Assembly (NCBI RefSeq): GCF_014896945.1
Contig: NZ_CP054719.1
Coordinates: 915,153 to 979,152 of the forward strand
From: Candidatus Bodocaedibacter vickermanii
GTDB lineage: Bacteria; Pseudomonadota; Alphaproteobacteria; UBA6184
Reading direction: 5' to 3'
DNA: 64,000 bases
The translations under genes were made by a program, and so were the position numbers. Below the pieces are notes generated by a model. That model did not search any database, was not told the origin of the DNA, and saw only the letters and a list, made by a program, of their open reading frames with translations. Positions within the stretch are counted from its first letter, which is position 1. Every line of letters begins with the position of its first letter. This document shows, piece after piece, positions 15,562-22,045 of this stretch.

Positions 15562-15636
<75 letters not shown>

Positions 15637-15737: not shown

Positions 15738-17219
15738 ATGCGCCCTTTTTATTTTTTGTTTTTGTTGGTCTCTTTGATTGGATCCAGCTTTGGATCCACC
15801 AGTATAAAAATTGGTTGGGTATCCCGATTACCCTACAGCTATCAAACAAACAACTATAGTATTTCCCAAGTTAGCGGTTTAGACATTGACTTTATCCGAG
15901 ACCTTGCCCGCAGATTAAATATAAAAGTCACACTTGTTCCTATCAATGAAAAAGATGTTCTCAGGTCGATTTCTAATCACGAGGTCGACGCCATTTTAGG
16001 ATATCCAATCAACAGTTTACCAAACGTTACGTGGTCAGAATCCTATCGACAAGAAGCCTATGTTGCATATCTGTCGGCAAATTCTAAGGAGTACTTTTAT
16101 ACACCGCAACAATTATTAGACACAATAAGCGAGACAAACCCTCTTGGACTTACGTCCGCTCGCAATTTGGGAGACGCCACCTTAAATGACTTTATCAACG
16201 ATCCCAGAAATTCGACAAAAACTCACAAAACCCACAATGAATCTGATTTGCTGGAAGAATTTTTACAGGGTTCTTTAAACATGTTCATTGGCGATCGCAT
16301 AGTTTTCTCAACGCTGCTACACAAATTACACCAGTGGAAATACGTGCGCGAAATCAATTTAGATTTACATCGACCCATTGCGCTGGGAATTTTAAATCAC
16401 AGTCCGCTGATGCAAAAGATTGAAGATATCAATCTTCAAATTACGGCAATGCACAAGGATGGAAAGATTGATCGATTATTCACTCAATACCTAACGCCGG
16501 CAGTACTAATGCATACTATCGACGAGGGGTGGTTACGCTTGATAGAATTAATCGGCATTGTGTCTTTTGCGATTTATGCATTTATTCATGGCTTCTACAG
16601 ACACATGGCGTTTGTAAAAACAGTTGGTTTTTCAATGGTCGTTGTCTTTACCGGCCCCGTACTTAAAGACATTCTTACCACCGGACACATTGAGTTCTTC
16701 AGAAACCCATACTACTTGTCCGTTGTAATTGGAATCATATTCGTAGCCCATGCAATTATTTCGACATTGCGCTCTTTGTCATACCGACAAATTCGAACCT
16801 ATATTGTTTCTGAAAATAAAGATCGCTGGATTCAAGAAATCACTTGCGCTTTAGGCTTGGCCAGTTATACGATTAGCGGTGTCTTGTATGCTATTACCAG
16901 CGCTGACACTGGTTGGTTTTGGGAGGGAATGTTGGGAACTATTACAGCCACATCAGGCTTATTAATCGCTCACGAATTGTACAAGCTACCCTCTAAAATT
17001 AATTTCCTTTTTGTAGAAATATCCTTTGGGTGGGGCACTTTGCTCGCCCTATACTTTACACTGTCACGAAGCACTATAAATTTTGATCAAGAAAGCATCT
17101 TCCTGGCCGTAATGACGACCCTGTTTGGCATTTTCTTAAGTAGAATGCTGGCACTTTATCATCAAATTTCTTCCATAGGATTTGGTCGAAGACTACGTGA
17201 AACCCTAGATAATTTATGA
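15738..17219 (+). CDS. Solute-binding domain fused to a TRIC-like membrane domain
   Basis: 493 residues in two parts. Residues 1-20 are a signal peptide; about 21-255 match a family 3 periplasmic solute-binding protein (IKIGWVSRLPYSYQ, GLDIDFIRDLARRLNIKVTLVPI, DAILGYPI, and LQGSLNMFIGDRIVFSTLL). From about 268 on there are seven hydrophobic segments laid out like the bacterial TRIC / UPF0126 channel: two similar halves, the first with GPVLKDILTTGHIEFFRNPYYL (compare GGGTLRDLLLG..P in the family), the second with GTITATSGLLIAHELYKL. The glycine-rich pore motif is degenerate in both halves. First gene of a four-gene unit with an RND efflux system, 7 nt before the adaptor. Function unknown; a ligand-sensing channel or sensor is possible. 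Confidence 0.72.
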   Translation: MRPFYFLFLLVSLIGSSFGSTSIKIGWVSRLPYSYQTNNYSISQVSGLDIDFIRDLARRLNIKVTLVPINEKDVLRSISNHEVDAILGYPINSLPNVTWSESYRQEAYVAYLSANSKEYFYTPQQLLDTISETNPLGLTSARNLGDATLNDFINDPRNSTKTHKTHNESDLLEEFLQGSLNMFIGDRIVFSTLLHKLHQWKYVREINLDLHRPIALGILNHSPLMQKIEDINLQITAMHKDGKIDRLFTQYLTPAVLMHTIDEGWLRLIELIGIVSFAIYAFIHGFYRHMAFVKTVGFSMVVVFTGPVLKDILTTGHIEFFRNPYYLSVVIGIIFVAHAIISTLRSLSYRQIRTYIVSENKDRWIQEITCALGLASYTISGVLYAITSADTGWFWEGMLGTITATSGLLIAHELYKLPSKINFLFVEISFGWGTLLALYFTLSRSTINFDQESIFLAVMTTLFGIFLSRMLALYHQISSIGFGRRLRETLDNL

Positions 17220-17226
17220 GAACATT

Positions 17227-18330
17227 ATGAAACACCCAAACACAGTAAGACAAACTCTTAAATCAATTCCCAAGAATTTCTTATTTGGCGGAATTGGGAT
17301 TATTATTCTATTAATTCTAGTTTCTAAATTTTTTCCCGGATCAGAAGATCTTAAACATCCGGCAGCAGAGTTTAAAGTTTACGCCCATCCATCTAAAGCA
17401 ACAAGCGAAACAATCACGCTTAGAACCTCTGGCACATCTAAAGCAAGTAAGAAAATTAATTTGTTAAGCGAAACATCAGGACAGATCTATCGTATTCACC
17501 ATCAAAAGGGACACACTATTAATATTAATGAAACCCTTGCAACAATACAACTTGAAGATCGAAGCCAATCGCTAAAACAAATAAAGGCGGCCTATGAACT
17601 GGCGAAACACAATCTAAACATTACCAAGCAGCTTGCTAAGGACAATTTCAGATCTGACATCAACTTAAAAACCGCACAAGTTGAATATGAAACCGCAGCA
17701 ACAAATCTGGCAAAAATTGAAAAAGAGATTAAAAACACGGTTATAAGCGCCCCGTTTAAAGGCGTCTTGGGCGACGTCTTATTAGAAGAGGGCAGCGTTG
17801 TTGCGCCCGGCATGCCTGTTGCCACACTGCTTAACCTTGATCCGATCCTGATACAACTGTACATTTCAGAAAAAGATTACGGTCGCGTTATCTTAAATCA
17901 TGCGGCGCAAATGCGTTTTTCAAACGATGAAAAAGTGTCTGGAAAAATCACGTTTATAAGCTCTATCGCCGACCCCAAAACACATATGTTTTTGGTAGAG
18001 GTTTCTATAGATAATCCAGAATTCAAATTTCCAGAAGGGGCAACCGCACAAGTTGATATTCCAACCGTTGAACAAAAAGTACATAAAATTAACCCTTCTA
18101 TATTGTCTATCGATCAAAACGGAAACATGGCTGTAAAAGTCATAAACGCAGAAAACAAAGTTGAATCTTATCCAGTAAAGCTTGCCCAAAGCGCCGGCGA
18201 CATTATTTGGGTCACTGGATTACCCGACGAAACAATTGTGATTGACTATGGTTCAAACTTTGTAAATTCTGGGGAAAAAGTTCAATGGGAACCCTCAGAA
18301 AAATTAAAAGGTCCAGAGCATGCGCAATAA
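17227..18330 (+). CDS. RND efflux periplasmic adaptor (membrane fusion protein)
   Basis: 367 residues, HlyD/AcrA family. An N-terminal membrane anchor (LFGGIGIIILLILVSKFF, about 18-35) is followed by a lipoyl/barrel half (LRTSGTSKASKKINLLSETSG.. and LATIQLEDRSQ), a short helical hairpin around 115-160, the second lipoyl half (TVISAPFKGVLGDVLLEEGSVVAPG) and a beta-barrel ending near 280. It links the inner-membrane RND pump to an outer-membrane channel; no TolC-like gene is in the window. Its last 11 nt overlap the start of the lipoprotein gene, so translation is coupled. Substrate not predictable. Confidence 0.92.
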   Translation: MKHPNTVRQTLKSIPKNFLFGGIGIIILLILVSKFFPGSEDLKHPAAEFKVYAHPSKATSETITLRTSGTSKASKKINLLSETSGQIYRIHHQKGHTININETLATIQLEDRSQSLKQIKAAYELAKHNLNITKQLAKDNFRSDINLKTAQVEYETAATNLAKIEKEIKNTVISAPFKGVLGDVLLEEGSVVAPGMPVATLLNLDPILIQLYISEKDYGRVILNHAAQMRFSNDEKVSGKITFISSIADPKTHMFLVEVSIDNPEFKFPEGATAQVDIPTVEQKVHKINPSILSIDQNGNMAVKVINAENKVESYPVKLAQSAGDIIWVTGLPDETIVIDYGSNFVNSGEKVQWEPSEKLKGPEHAQ

Positions 18331-18865
18331 GGTTTTTACATTTATTGTGACGTGTTGTTTGGTTGCGTGCAGCAATGATACTCAAAATATCGAACCAACG
18401 CCACTTGTTGTGAGCGCACGTTTCGATATTCCTGCATCACCCCCAAAAGACATAGAAAAATATTTTACGAACCCGCTGGTTAAGGCATTAAAATCTGCAC
18501 CCCACGTGTCCATCACACATGCCATTGCTTTAAAAAACGGCGCAACCGTGGTTGTGTTTTTTGAAGATGGAATTAAGTTTGCAGAAGGTGAAGACATCAT
18601 TACATCCGTGCTTACATCAGTAAAATCGCCAAAGAAATTTAACACTGTTGATTTTACAGAATTATGCGGGGACGACTTGTCTCAAAGTGATTTGATGCAT
18701 ATTGCAAAAGCAAAAGGCGTAAAATCAGAAAGTGTGTTTGATAATGTCATCACCGTATCCGCCGATATAGCAAAAAATATACTTCCTTCAGAAGAATATA
18801 ATTCTATGTTTGCAAACGAGTGCGATGAGCCTTCAACCGCTCCACTGTATGTTCTAGAAAACTAA
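18320..18865 (+). CDS. Lipoprotein with similarity to the RND porter subdomain
   Basis: 181 residues with lipobox CLVAC (acylated Cys17). After the signal, residues 32-85 (ARFDIPASPPKDIEKYF.. NPLVKALKSAPHVSITHAIA.. NGATVVVFFEDG) run parallel to the N-terminal porter region of the pump encoded next door (SIAPEDAERLLIRPMEKQLRTL..STAFEGGANITLEFNAG). Pattern, spacing and the final beta strand agree, so it reads like a free-standing PN1-type porter domain tethered to a membrane. Two later cysteines (CGDD, NECDE) could form a disulfide. The gene overlaps the adaptor by 11 nt and ends 12 nt before the pump. I know no named family for it; the relationship is inferred by eye. Confidence 0.7.
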   Translation: MRNKVFTFIVTCCLVACSNDTQNIEPTPLVVSARFDIPASPPKDIEKYFTNPLVKALKSAPHVSITHAIALKNGATVVVFFEDGIKFAEGEDIITSVLTSVKSPKKFNTVDFTELCGDDLSQSDLMHIAKAKGVKSESVFDNVITVSADIAKNILPSEEYNSMFANECDEPSTAPLYVLEN

Positions 18866-18877
18866 GGAAGCAAAACC

Positions 18878-21800
18878 ATGATGAGATCAATTGTTGAGTT
18901 TGGGTTACGACAAAATCGTGCAATATTATCATTGCTGGTGTTAATCTTTATTGCGGGTATCTCAACCTATATTAAAATACCTAAAGAATCATTCCCAGAC
19001 ATTAAAATTCCCATCATGATTGTTCAGCTAACACACGATAGCATCGCCCCAGAAGATGCTGAGCGATTGTTAATACGTCCGATGGAAAAACAGCTGCGCA
19101 CCCTTGAAAACTTAAAAGATTATAAGTCAACAGCCTTTGAAGGGGGCGCAAATATCACCCTAGAATTCAACGCTGGGTTTAACGCAAAAGAAGCAAAAGA
19201 TGCAGTTAGAGACAAAGTCGACATCGCCAAAGCAGATCTTCCCACCGAAACGCTTGAGCCCAATATTATTGAAATCAACACCAGCAAGTTTCCAGTTTTG
19301 ACAGTAAAACTATCGGGCGCCGTGCCACAGCGCACATTGATCGAACTGGGTAGAACCCTTAAAGATGCCATAGAGGCAAATGTGTCAGAAGTTCTAGAGG
19401 TCAACATGCTTGGCGACCGAACAGAGCAGGTTGAAATTCAAATAGACCCCGTCAAATTGGAAAACTATGCTGTTGATTTGATGCAAGTCATTCAACAGTT
19501 TTCAGCCAACAATGTCATGGTTAACTCTGGCAGCTTAGACACCGGCAAAGGACGCTTTCCTGTAAAGGTTCCAGGATTAATCAATGATGTAAAAGACTTA
19601 TTCGATTTCCCCGTCATGATGAACGGATCACAGGTTGTAACATTCAAAGATATTGCAGATGTAAAGCTTGTTTATCAAGATGCAACCTCATATGCCAGGG
19701 ACCGTGGCCAGCCTGCAATTGCGCTGGAAATTACAAAAAGAACCGGCGAAAATATCATTGAGACTATTGAAAAAGTAAAGTACGTATTAAGCCAAGCAAA
19801 AGCTAGCGATCAGTGGCCACAAGCCGTTGAGGTTGGGTTTTCTCAAGACCAAACAAAACACATTCAAGACTTTTTGTTCACCCTCCAGAACACGCTCATA
19901 TTTACTTTGATGCTTGTAATTGGGGTGATTGTTTACTCTATGGGTGTTCGTCCGTCTATTTTAGTCGGGCTATCGGTACCAGGATCATTTTTGATTGGGT
20001 TGCTGCTTCTAAATGCTATGGGATACACCATGAACATGATCGTGCTGTTCAGCTTTATTTTGGCGGCTGGAATGTTGGTGGATGGCGCCATCATTGTGGT
20101 TGAATATGCGGATCGGCGAATGATTGAAGGCGTCGATCGCGTAAATGCCTACAAAGACGCCGCACATAAAATGCTGATACCTATTCTAACCTCTGTTGGA
20201 ACCATCGCCATTGTCTTTATGCCGTTGCTATTTTGGCCTGGCCTTGTGGGTGAGTTTATGAAGTTTATGCCCATCACGCTTATCATGACGCTTGGCGGAT
20301 CAATCATTATGGCGGTGTTTTTTACGCCGATATTGGGCGCAATGACCGCAAAGGTTGATCTTGCGCATTATGAAAAAAGCAAAGACGATATTCTTGCTGC
20401 TCAAAATTGTAAGTTTGACGAAATAAAAGGCATCACGGGTAAATATGTAATGTTGCTGGAAAAGCAACTACACCACCCGTGGAGATTAATTGGGGCGGGT
20501 ATATCTTCTTTGATTATTGTCCAGGTTGTTTATAGCTTTTTAAACAATGGTGTTGTGTTTTTTCCCGATACCGATCCCGAACAAGCTCAAATTAATATCC
20601 GAGCCCGCGGAGATATGTCCGGACTTGAAAAAGATGCTCTGGTTTGGCAAGTGGAATCTCTTATTTTAGATATGAAAGAACTAAAATCCATTTACGCCCG
20701 AACTGATGCGATTAAGGGTGGAACAAAAGGCGCAATGGACAAAGGCAGCCCGCCCGACACCATTGGAACAATTTTTCTAGAATTTGATGATTGGAACAAA
20801 CGTCGCAGGGTTAATGATATTTTAAAGGAAATCAAGCAACGCTGCGCCGGTGTACCCGGAGTTATTCTGGACGTTTCTGTTCAGAAAAGCGGTCCACCAT
20901 CGGACAAGCCTATTGATATTGGTTTAACGGGAACTTCTTTGGATTCATTAATGAAAGCAGCCGATATTTTAAAAGACAAACTAGTCGCACTTGGTGGCGT
21001 ACAAGATGTTGAAGATAGTCGATTTTTACCCGGCGTACAGCTAAACATTAACGTTGACCGCGTCGAAGCTGCAAAGTATGGAGCAACCATTCAAGCTGTC
21101 GGGGGAGTCTTGCGCATGTTAACCACCGGTGTAAAAGTTGGAAGCTATCGAACAGAATCAAAACGCGACGAACTGGATGTTCTGCTGCGATTTAATCCCA
21201 ACTATAAAAACTTTGATGAGATTGCGCACCTAAGGTTGCCCACACCATTAGGTTCAGTTGCTATCAGCCAATTTGCAACTCAATCATTCTCAGACAAGGT
21301 TGGAACCATTCGTAGGCTAAACGGTTCGCGAATTATTAGCGTAAAAGCAAACGTCGCCGAGGGTCACTTGGCCAGCGACAAAGTAAACGCCATCAACGAA
21401 TGGATTGAAAAATCGAAACCTTTTTCAAAAGACGTCAGTGTCGTTTTTAGAGGAGAAGACAAAGATCAAAAAGAATCTGGTGCATTCCTAGGAAAAGCGT
21501 TTATGTGGGCGATTATGCTAATGTTGTTCGTGTTGATTCTACAATTCAACAGCTTCTTTAGCGCCTTTTTGGTATTAAGCGCTATTGTAATGTCCACAGT
21601 CGGCGTCTTTATCGGATTAATGATTCATCAAATTCCATTCAGCGTTGTTATGGGGGGCGTCAGCATCATTGCGCTGGCGGGAATTATCGTCAGCAACAAT
21701 ATTATTCTGATCGACACATTTGATGAGACCGTTAAGAAAATTACGGACGTTAAAACCGCCATTTTATATACGTGTGCTCAACGACTAAGACCTATTGTGC

Positions 21801-22045
21801 TAACACATATCACGGTCATCTTGGGGTTATTACCGATTGTCTTTTTGGTTAACATTGACTTTGTTAATATCACCATTACAATTGGCGACCCGGCGATGGA
21901 ATTTTGGCAACAGCTTGCGATCTGCATATCGTATGGTGTGGCCTTTGGATCGCTGCTAACGTCATTTGTAACACCAGCAGCACTGATGGCTAGACACAAA
22001 TTCCGTGAAAAAAGAAGGCTGACTAAACAGGCTCTCGACCGGTAA
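18878..22045 (+). CDS. RND efflux transporter (inner-membrane pump)
   Basis: 1055 residues, the AcrB/MMPL-superfamily HAE-type layout: TM1 near 15-32, a periplasmic porter/docking loop, TM2-6 (about 335-500), a second loop and TM8-12. TM4 reads GMLVDGAIIVVEYAD: the first Asp of the DD pair used for proton relay in AcrB is kept and the second is Gly, a single-Asp variant also seen in other RND families. TM10 reads GIIVSNNIILIDTFDE, without the AcrB Lys. The adaptor and a porter-like lipoprotein lie upstream. Likely a proton-driven exporter of lipophilic compounds; substrate unknown. Confidence 0.94.
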   Translation: MMRSIVEFGLRQNRAILSLLVLIFIAGISTYIKIPKESFPDIKIPIMIVQLTHDSIAPEDAERLLIRPMEKQLRTLENLKDYKSTAFEGGANITLEFNAGFNAKEAKDAVRDKVDIAKADLPTETLEPNIIEINTSKFPVLTVKLSGAVPQRTLIELGRTLKDAIEANVSEVLEVNMLGDRTEQVEIQIDPVKLENYAVDLMQVIQQFSANNVMVNSGSLDTGKGRFPVKVPGLINDVKDLFDFPVMMNGSQVVTFKDIADVKLVYQDATSYARDRGQPAIALEITKRTGENIIETIEKVKYVLSQAKASDQWPQAVEVGFSQDQTKHIQDFLFTLQNTLIFTLMLVIGVIVYSMGVRPSILVGLSVPGSFLIGLLLLNAMGYTMNMIVLFSFILAAGMLVDGAIIVVEYADRRMIEGVDRVNAYKDAAHKMLIPILTSVGTIAIVFMPLLFWPGLVGEFMKFMPITLIMTLGGSIIMAVFFTPILGAMTAKVDLAHYEKSKDDILAAQNCKFDEIKGITGKYVMLLEKQLHHPWRLIGAGISSLIIVQVVYSFLNNGVVFFPDTDPEQAQINIRARGDMSGLEKDALVWQVESLILDMKELKSIYARTDAIKGGTKGAMDKGSPPDTIGTIFLEFDDWNKRRRVNDILKEIKQRCAGVPGVILDVSVQKSGPPSDKPIDIGLTGTSLDSLMKAADILKDKLVALGGVQDVEDSRFLPGVQLNINVDRVEAAKYGATIQAVGGVLRMLTTGVKVGSYRTESKRDELDVLLRFNPNYKNFDEIAHLRLPTPLGSVAISQFATQSFSDKVGTIRRLNGSRIISVKANVAEGHLASDKVNAINEWIEKSKPFSKDVSVVFRGEDKDQKESGAFLGKAFMWAIMLMLFVLILQFNSFFSAFLVLSAIVMSTVGVFIGLMIHQIPFSVVMGGVSIIALAGIIVSNNIILIDTFDETVKKITDVKTAILYTCAQRLRPIVLTHITVILGLLPIVFLVNIDFVNITITIGDPAMEFWQQLAICISYGVAFGSLLTSFVTPAALMARHKFREKRRLTKQALDR

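Follow-up and report, generated by a model that had tools for sequence, protein, structure and literature searches.

The locus described here raises the question of why a gene for a predicted solute-binding protein (SBP) fused to a TRIC-like membrane domain should stand at the head of an RND efflux operon. It lies in a 64,000-nucleotide stretch (the window) of Candidatus Bodocaedibacter vickermanii, whose genome is a single contig of 1,391,311 bases and which, among relatives that bear a name, stands closest to Ca. Paracaedibacteraceae bacterium UBA6184 (loci L081 and L087). The accessible text of PMC8163844 describes the organism as an endosymbiont of Bodo saltans with a genome of 1.39 Mb and 40.7% GC, in the same family as UBA6184, and there its RND transporters figure only as part of a count. 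We found no description in the literature of an SBP-TRIC fusion or of a fusion-adaptor-pump operon. The components of the unit are of known kinds, and the new part is the lineage-restricted union of the fusion with an RND operon.

The unit comprises four genes on the + strand (Table 1), the first of which starts about 100 nt downstream of a tRNA-Val gene. ORF coordinates and strand reproduce exactly the spacing reported in a first-pass annotation of this DNA: a 7-nt gap between genes 1 and 2, an 11-nt overlap of genes 2 and 3, and a 12-nt gap between genes 3 and 4. From this close spacing we infer that the four genes are co-transcribed. Promoter and terminator scans of the unit gave results no better than chance, and a plasmid search returned no match.

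Table 1. Features of the four-gene unit and its 5' boundary, in window positions
Feature	Position	Strand	Description
tRNA-Val (gac)	15562..15636	+	ARAGORN; 5' boundary of the four-gene unit
Gene 1	15738..17219	+	SBP_bac_3/UPF0126 (TRIC, Gly_transporter) fusion; 493 aa
Parts of the gene 1 product			Signal peptide, residues ~1-20; SBP, ~22-256; seven membrane helices, ~264-474
SBP motif of gene 1	15987..16025	+	DAILGYPINSLPN, residues 84-96, without the ligand-carboxylate arginine; alignment and motif table
TRIC repeat 1 motif of gene 1	16644..16673	+	Degenerate VFTGPVLKDI (other fusions GG-xx-RD); motif table
TRIC repeat 2 motif of gene 1	16944..16979	+	Degenerate TATSGLLIAHEL (other fusions mostly GG-xxx-RD); motif table
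Gene 2	17227..18330	+	Predicted RND periplasmic adaptor (membrane fusion protein); 367 aa; TIGR01730 1.3e-44
Gene 3	18320..18865	+	Predicted lipoprotein, RND PN1-like region ~residues 36-111; 181 aa; lipobox LVAC, Cys17
Gene 4	18878..22045	+	Predicted RND pump; 1055 aa; ACR_tran 2.3e-148; LVDGAII in TM4, IIVSNNIIL in TM10

The calls of a binding-protein/TRIC fusion, an RND adaptor, and an RND pump, made at first from the sequence alone, agree with Pfam and NCBIfam matches. In Pfam, gene 1 matches SBP_bac_3 at 4.3e-10 (39.9 bits against a cut-off of 26.4) and, in two stretches, the prokaryotic TRIC family UPF0126/Gly_transporter (PF03458) at 8.9e-6 (25.9 bits against a cut-off of 23.5). Structure prediction, which the first-pass annotation had proposed as a check, yields an AlphaFold model with a mean pLDDT of 81 that combines an SBP fold with seven membrane helices. 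Foldseek matches the SBP half of the model to the amino-acid SBPs 3k4u and 4ymx in the PDB at 1e-11, and also to the ligand-binding domains of GluN1/GluN2. Because the top 50 Foldseek matches of gene 1 are all of the SBP fold, with no TRIC structure among them, the assignment of a TRIC fold is based on sequence profiles and the helix count: a profile of the fusion family matches the solved TRIC 5h35 with an E-value of 1.6e-14, which, together with the seven helices of the model, bears out the description of the membrane part as TRIC-like.

Within the window genus, this protein has lost residues that characterize its family. The sequence DAILG--YPINSLPN stands where a (T/S)xxR motif is expected, and its arginine, the residue that holds the ligand carboxylate in HisJ-type binding proteins, is gone; 19 of 22 fusions have it, the exceptions being those of the window genus and of one distant MAG. 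The SBP aspartate (GDR) is retained. In the membrane part, GPVLKD and SGLLIAHE occupy the places of GG-xx-RD in repeats 1 and 2, so the pore motifs were rightly called degenerate when measured against other fusions. In solved TRICs, TM2 and TM5 are kinked by these glycines where they surround the conduction path, and in the locked state the R-D pair is part of a network between helices (PMC5477506).

These replacements bear directly on whether gene 1 could be a ligand-gated ion channel whose cation flux is coupled to efflux or signalling. TRIC homologs conduct K+ (PMC5477506), and SBP-type domains gate ionotropic glutamate receptors, in keeping with the resemblance of the SBP half to GluN1/GluN2 domains as well as to bacterial SBPs, but neither the R-D pair nor the GGG kinks that shape the TRIC conduction path have been kept. 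With pore and ligand residues lost, the coupling of ion flux to efflux suggested in the first-pass annotation is among the least likely readings, and we give a channel function little credence.

Genes 2 and 4 represent an export pump of an ordinary alphaproteobacterial kind. Gene 2 scores 152.5 bits against a cut-off of 94.9 for TIGR01730 (RND_mfp), and its nearest solved sequences are the TriABC adaptor chimera (6vej), ZneB, and MexA. Gene 4 matches ACR_tran (PF00873) over residues 5-1034, with MexK (4e-59), MdtB (3e-57), and the TriABC pump (8e-52) as its best solved-structure matches. The strict AcrB/HAE proton relay is marked by a pair of neighbouring aspartates in TM4 together with a lysine in TM10. 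This signature is absent from gene 4, which has LVDG in TM4, VSNN in TM10, and no TM10 lysine; LVDG occurs in 14 of the 14 aligned pumps of its group, whereas MexK and MdtB have VDD in TM4. Gene 4 is predicted to be an RND pump, but one outside the strict AcrB relay type.

Relatives of gene 4 were found in 34 of 76 sampled genomes (E<=1e-100) and are 36-54% identical over the full length outside the genus. Twenty neighbourhoods of such pumps consist mostly of adaptor and pump; eight are headed by a PadR-like gene and none contains an SBP-TRIC fusion. The nearest small-genome relatives (L123 and L124) have the adaptor and pump alone. These comparisons indicate that the adaptor-pump pair, an old alphaproteobacterial MFP-RND operon, existed before the fusion joined it. 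The PadR-like gene lies upstream of the adaptor in L127, L128, L129, L131, L135, L136, L137, and L138, constituting a recurrent operon of which we found no mention in the literature; all five of the PadR-like genes tested by Pfam were confirmed. Phosphatidylserine synthase/decarboxylase genes often adjoin the pump pair (L126, L127, L129, L137, L139, and L141), and may hint at a lipid-related substrate.

The absence from the window operon of the PadR-like gene that heads related operons suggests another role, in which gene 1 would replace this regulator as a membrane sensor that controls pump expression or activity. Such a replacement is improbable given that gene 1 lacks both a cytoplasmic signalling domain and a DNA-binding domain and that the pairs in L123 and L124 are accompanied by neither PadR nor fusion.

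One OEP/TolC-like protein was found in the genome (C1:1208885-1210078), unlinked to the unit, as were two full-length RND pumps, gene 4 and another at 618205-621246. Since a single TolC-like protein was found, both pumps probably share it as their outer-membrane factor.

The case for the four genes as a unit gains from the conservation of the neighbourhood in relatives. Our family sample contains three genomes from two genera: the window species, a sister species (L023), and a second genus represented by the 0.9 Mb MAG Co_bin.382 (L024). In the sister species the four genes follow one another in identical order, with protein identities to the window of 90-95% for genes 1, 3, and 4 and 85% for gene 2. 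In the second genus the order fusion-adaptor-pump is kept, with 3 nt between adaptor and pump and thus without gene 3. This order is therefore found in three of three sampled family genomes, and the lipoprotein gene in one genus. Gene order outlasts sequence, as the order persists in the second genus despite only ~25% identity of gene 1 between the genera. A chance neighbourhood was ruled out by the retention of the order in two genera and three genomes. The second-genus locus also contains a 504 aa ORF without a Pfam match, ~290 nt 3' of the pump on the same strand (L024:4608-6122).

Nei-Gojobori dN/dS ratios between the window and sister species, which are approximate as dS is ~0.8-1.3, are 0.043 for gene 1, 0.075 for gene 2, 0.055 for gene 3, and 0.025 for gene 4, compared to 0.087 for the neighbouring peptide deformylase. 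All four are clearly functional coding genes under strong purifying selection. Within gene 1 the ratio is 0.061 for the SBP half and 0.020 for the TRIC half; no other part of the unit is as constrained as the latter, and the comparison with peptide deformylase shows that the TRIC domain, degenerate as it is, is under strong constraint.

We also surveyed SBP-TRIC fusions elsewhere. Of 385 genomes sampled from the class, 13 encode full-length SBP_bac_3-UPF0126 fusions; many of these genomes are small and many have several copies. The fusion is therefore not a unique invention. Among its named carriers are Aquibaculum, Falsiroseomonas, and Roseomonas, and at a strict threshold a sample of the whole phylum placed fusions in Alphaproteobacteria only. 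Among the neighbourhoods listed, the other fusions stand outside RND operons, and at least two of these loci (L027 and L074) have such an operon within a few kb but not contiguous; on this basis RND linkage was rejected as a general property of the fusions. The first-pass description of the arrangement as non-standard consequently holds for the placement of a fusion at the head of an RND operon, seen in no other inspected neighbourhood, but not for the fusion itself, which is recurrent in Alphaproteobacteria. B. vickermanii encodes two more fusions in tandem (C1:~754890-758211; L025:9888-13227), with motifs intact, near rlmJ and a gene of the Sbt_1 bicarbonate transporter family.

In a full-length tree of 22 fusions the three RND-linked ones group together (98/92), as they do in a TRIC-only tree (96/98); the group was not recovered in an SBP-only tree. 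The groupings are consistent with a single attachment of the fusion to the RND pair. Between the window genus and the RND-linked fusion of the second genus lies a very long branch (~3 changes per site), and such a branch followed by tight constraint is the pattern of a changed function, which we suggest for the window-genus fusion. The second-genus fusion keeps the SBP arginine and most of the TRIC motifs (GGMVLRD and GGIYLRN), so there the fusion could be nothing more than a permease encoded alongside the pump.

A permease is also what the family background would suggest for gene 1. Glycine utilisation has been associated with UPF0126 proteins in 11 bacteria (PMC12173739), so the fusion most likely began as an amino-acid transporter, and in several small-genome relatives the multi-copy family may provide an amino-acid uptake route from the host. 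Gene 1 might then be an independent SBP-dependent permease for small, glycine-like amino acids that is merely co-transcribed with the pump, for example as an import/export pair or through shared regulation. Consistent with this are the Pfam name Gly_transporter, the binding of polar amino acids by SBP_bac_3 domains, the arginine kept in the second genus, and the intact motifs of most fusions, which stand alone, including the two tandem paralogs. However, the window genus has lost the ligand arginine and both pore motifs while the protein is still constrained, and its genome already supplies two canonical fusions. We consider an independent permease possible but rather doubtful.

Gene 3 matches no family in Pfam or NCBIfam. 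In both species a lipobox follows a short hydrophobic stretch, and the best match of gene 3 is to PN1 of the unit's own pump, residues 42-111 against pump residues 58-127, a score equalled by 1 of 1000 shuffles; 13 of 14 aligned pumps place the match at the same PN1 position. The lipobox and the repeated, weak PN1 matches favor the initial designation of a porter-like lipoprotein. A profile-profile comparison to PN1 gives a probability of 6%, and the structure model (pLDDT 48) is too poor to use, its fold matches being mostly ribosomal with some RND pumps and none significant. Most of the sub-threshold hits in a search of 385 genomes lay in pump-length ORFs. Of seven that were opened, six are RND pumps matched at the N-terminus (PN1) and one (L148) is a non-RND protein. 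As to stand-alone homologs, this class-wide search yielded pump N-termini and chance hits only; two leads were discarded, L013 being an RND pump and L014 unrelated. We think it probable that gene 3 derives from the PN1 module of an RND pump. Its weak resemblance to the pump N-terminus, the lack of any homolog found outside the genus, and its absence from the second genus would also fit a non-functional, decaying fragment of a duplicated pump gene, but decay is hard to reconcile with an ORF and lipobox intact in both species, 91% identity, and a low dN/dS, and seems very unlikely.

Taken together, we tentatively prefer to regard gene 1 as a subunit that serves the pump as an accessory receptor or scaffold, and no longer as a standard permease or channel, ahead of the co-transcribed permease, the ligand-gated channel, and the PadR replacement. 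According to this model, an RND export operon of adaptor and pump, presumably served by the one TolC-like protein found, which is encoded outside the unit, would have gained the fusion gene in the ancestor of the endosymbiont family. The SBP domain, tethered by the seven-helix TRIC domain, would sit in the periplasm beside the porter domain of the pump, where it could present or sense a periplasmic ligand. In the window genus, the SBP would no longer read the amino-acid alpha-carboxylate in the usual way, and with this arginine reading and the glycine-kinked pore gone, the membrane part would most likely be an anchor or docking platform instead of a channel or permease. The lipoprotein restricted to this genus, which is probably a PN1-like porter module that has become detached, would most likely dock periplasmically on the pump or adaptor.

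RND pumps are usually regarded as three-part machines. If gene 1 is a true pump subunit, it would add an inner-membrane component for sensing or for delivering substrate, and its lost motifs would make it a natural case in which the fold of a channel or permease has been put to use as a scaffold. A bolder and, in our estimate, unlikely extension is that the inner-membrane SBP-TRIC pseudo-channel and the lipidated stand-alone PN1 module together define a fourth-subunit class in an extended efflux complex of protist endosymbionts. As the organism lives inside a protist and the unit encodes one of the two full-length RND pumps found, it may matter at the host-symbiont interface.

Among known systems, MexK/MdtB/TriC-type RND pumps with HlyD-family adaptors are the best sequence matches for genes 4 and 2, but gene 4 has LVDG in place of LVDD and no TM10 lysine, features common to its alphaproteobacterial relatives, and the window operon carries two extra genes. 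The alphaproteobacterial (PadR-)MFP-RND operons share an orthologous pump (36-54% identity) with, in most, the adaptor directly upstream, but are headed by PadR or nothing and have no lipoprotein gene between adaptor and pump. Prokaryotic TRIC channels (SaTRIC 5h35, 5wtr, and relatives) resemble gene 1 in their seven helices, two repeats, and profile match, and differ in that gene 1 lacks the GGG kinks and R-D pair and has an SBP fused N-terminally. The SBP_bac_3-UPF0126 fusions of Alphaproteobacteria (Aquibaculum, Falsiroseomonas, and small-genome relatives) are clear homologs with the same domain order and length, though they stand alone and nearly all have an intact arginine and GG-xx-RD. 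Finally, CusF, which acts with CusBA, is a soluble metal chaperone of unrelated fold that is not membrane-anchored, yet it offers a parallel to the role proposed for gene 1, that of a periplasmic binding module serving an adaptor and pump.
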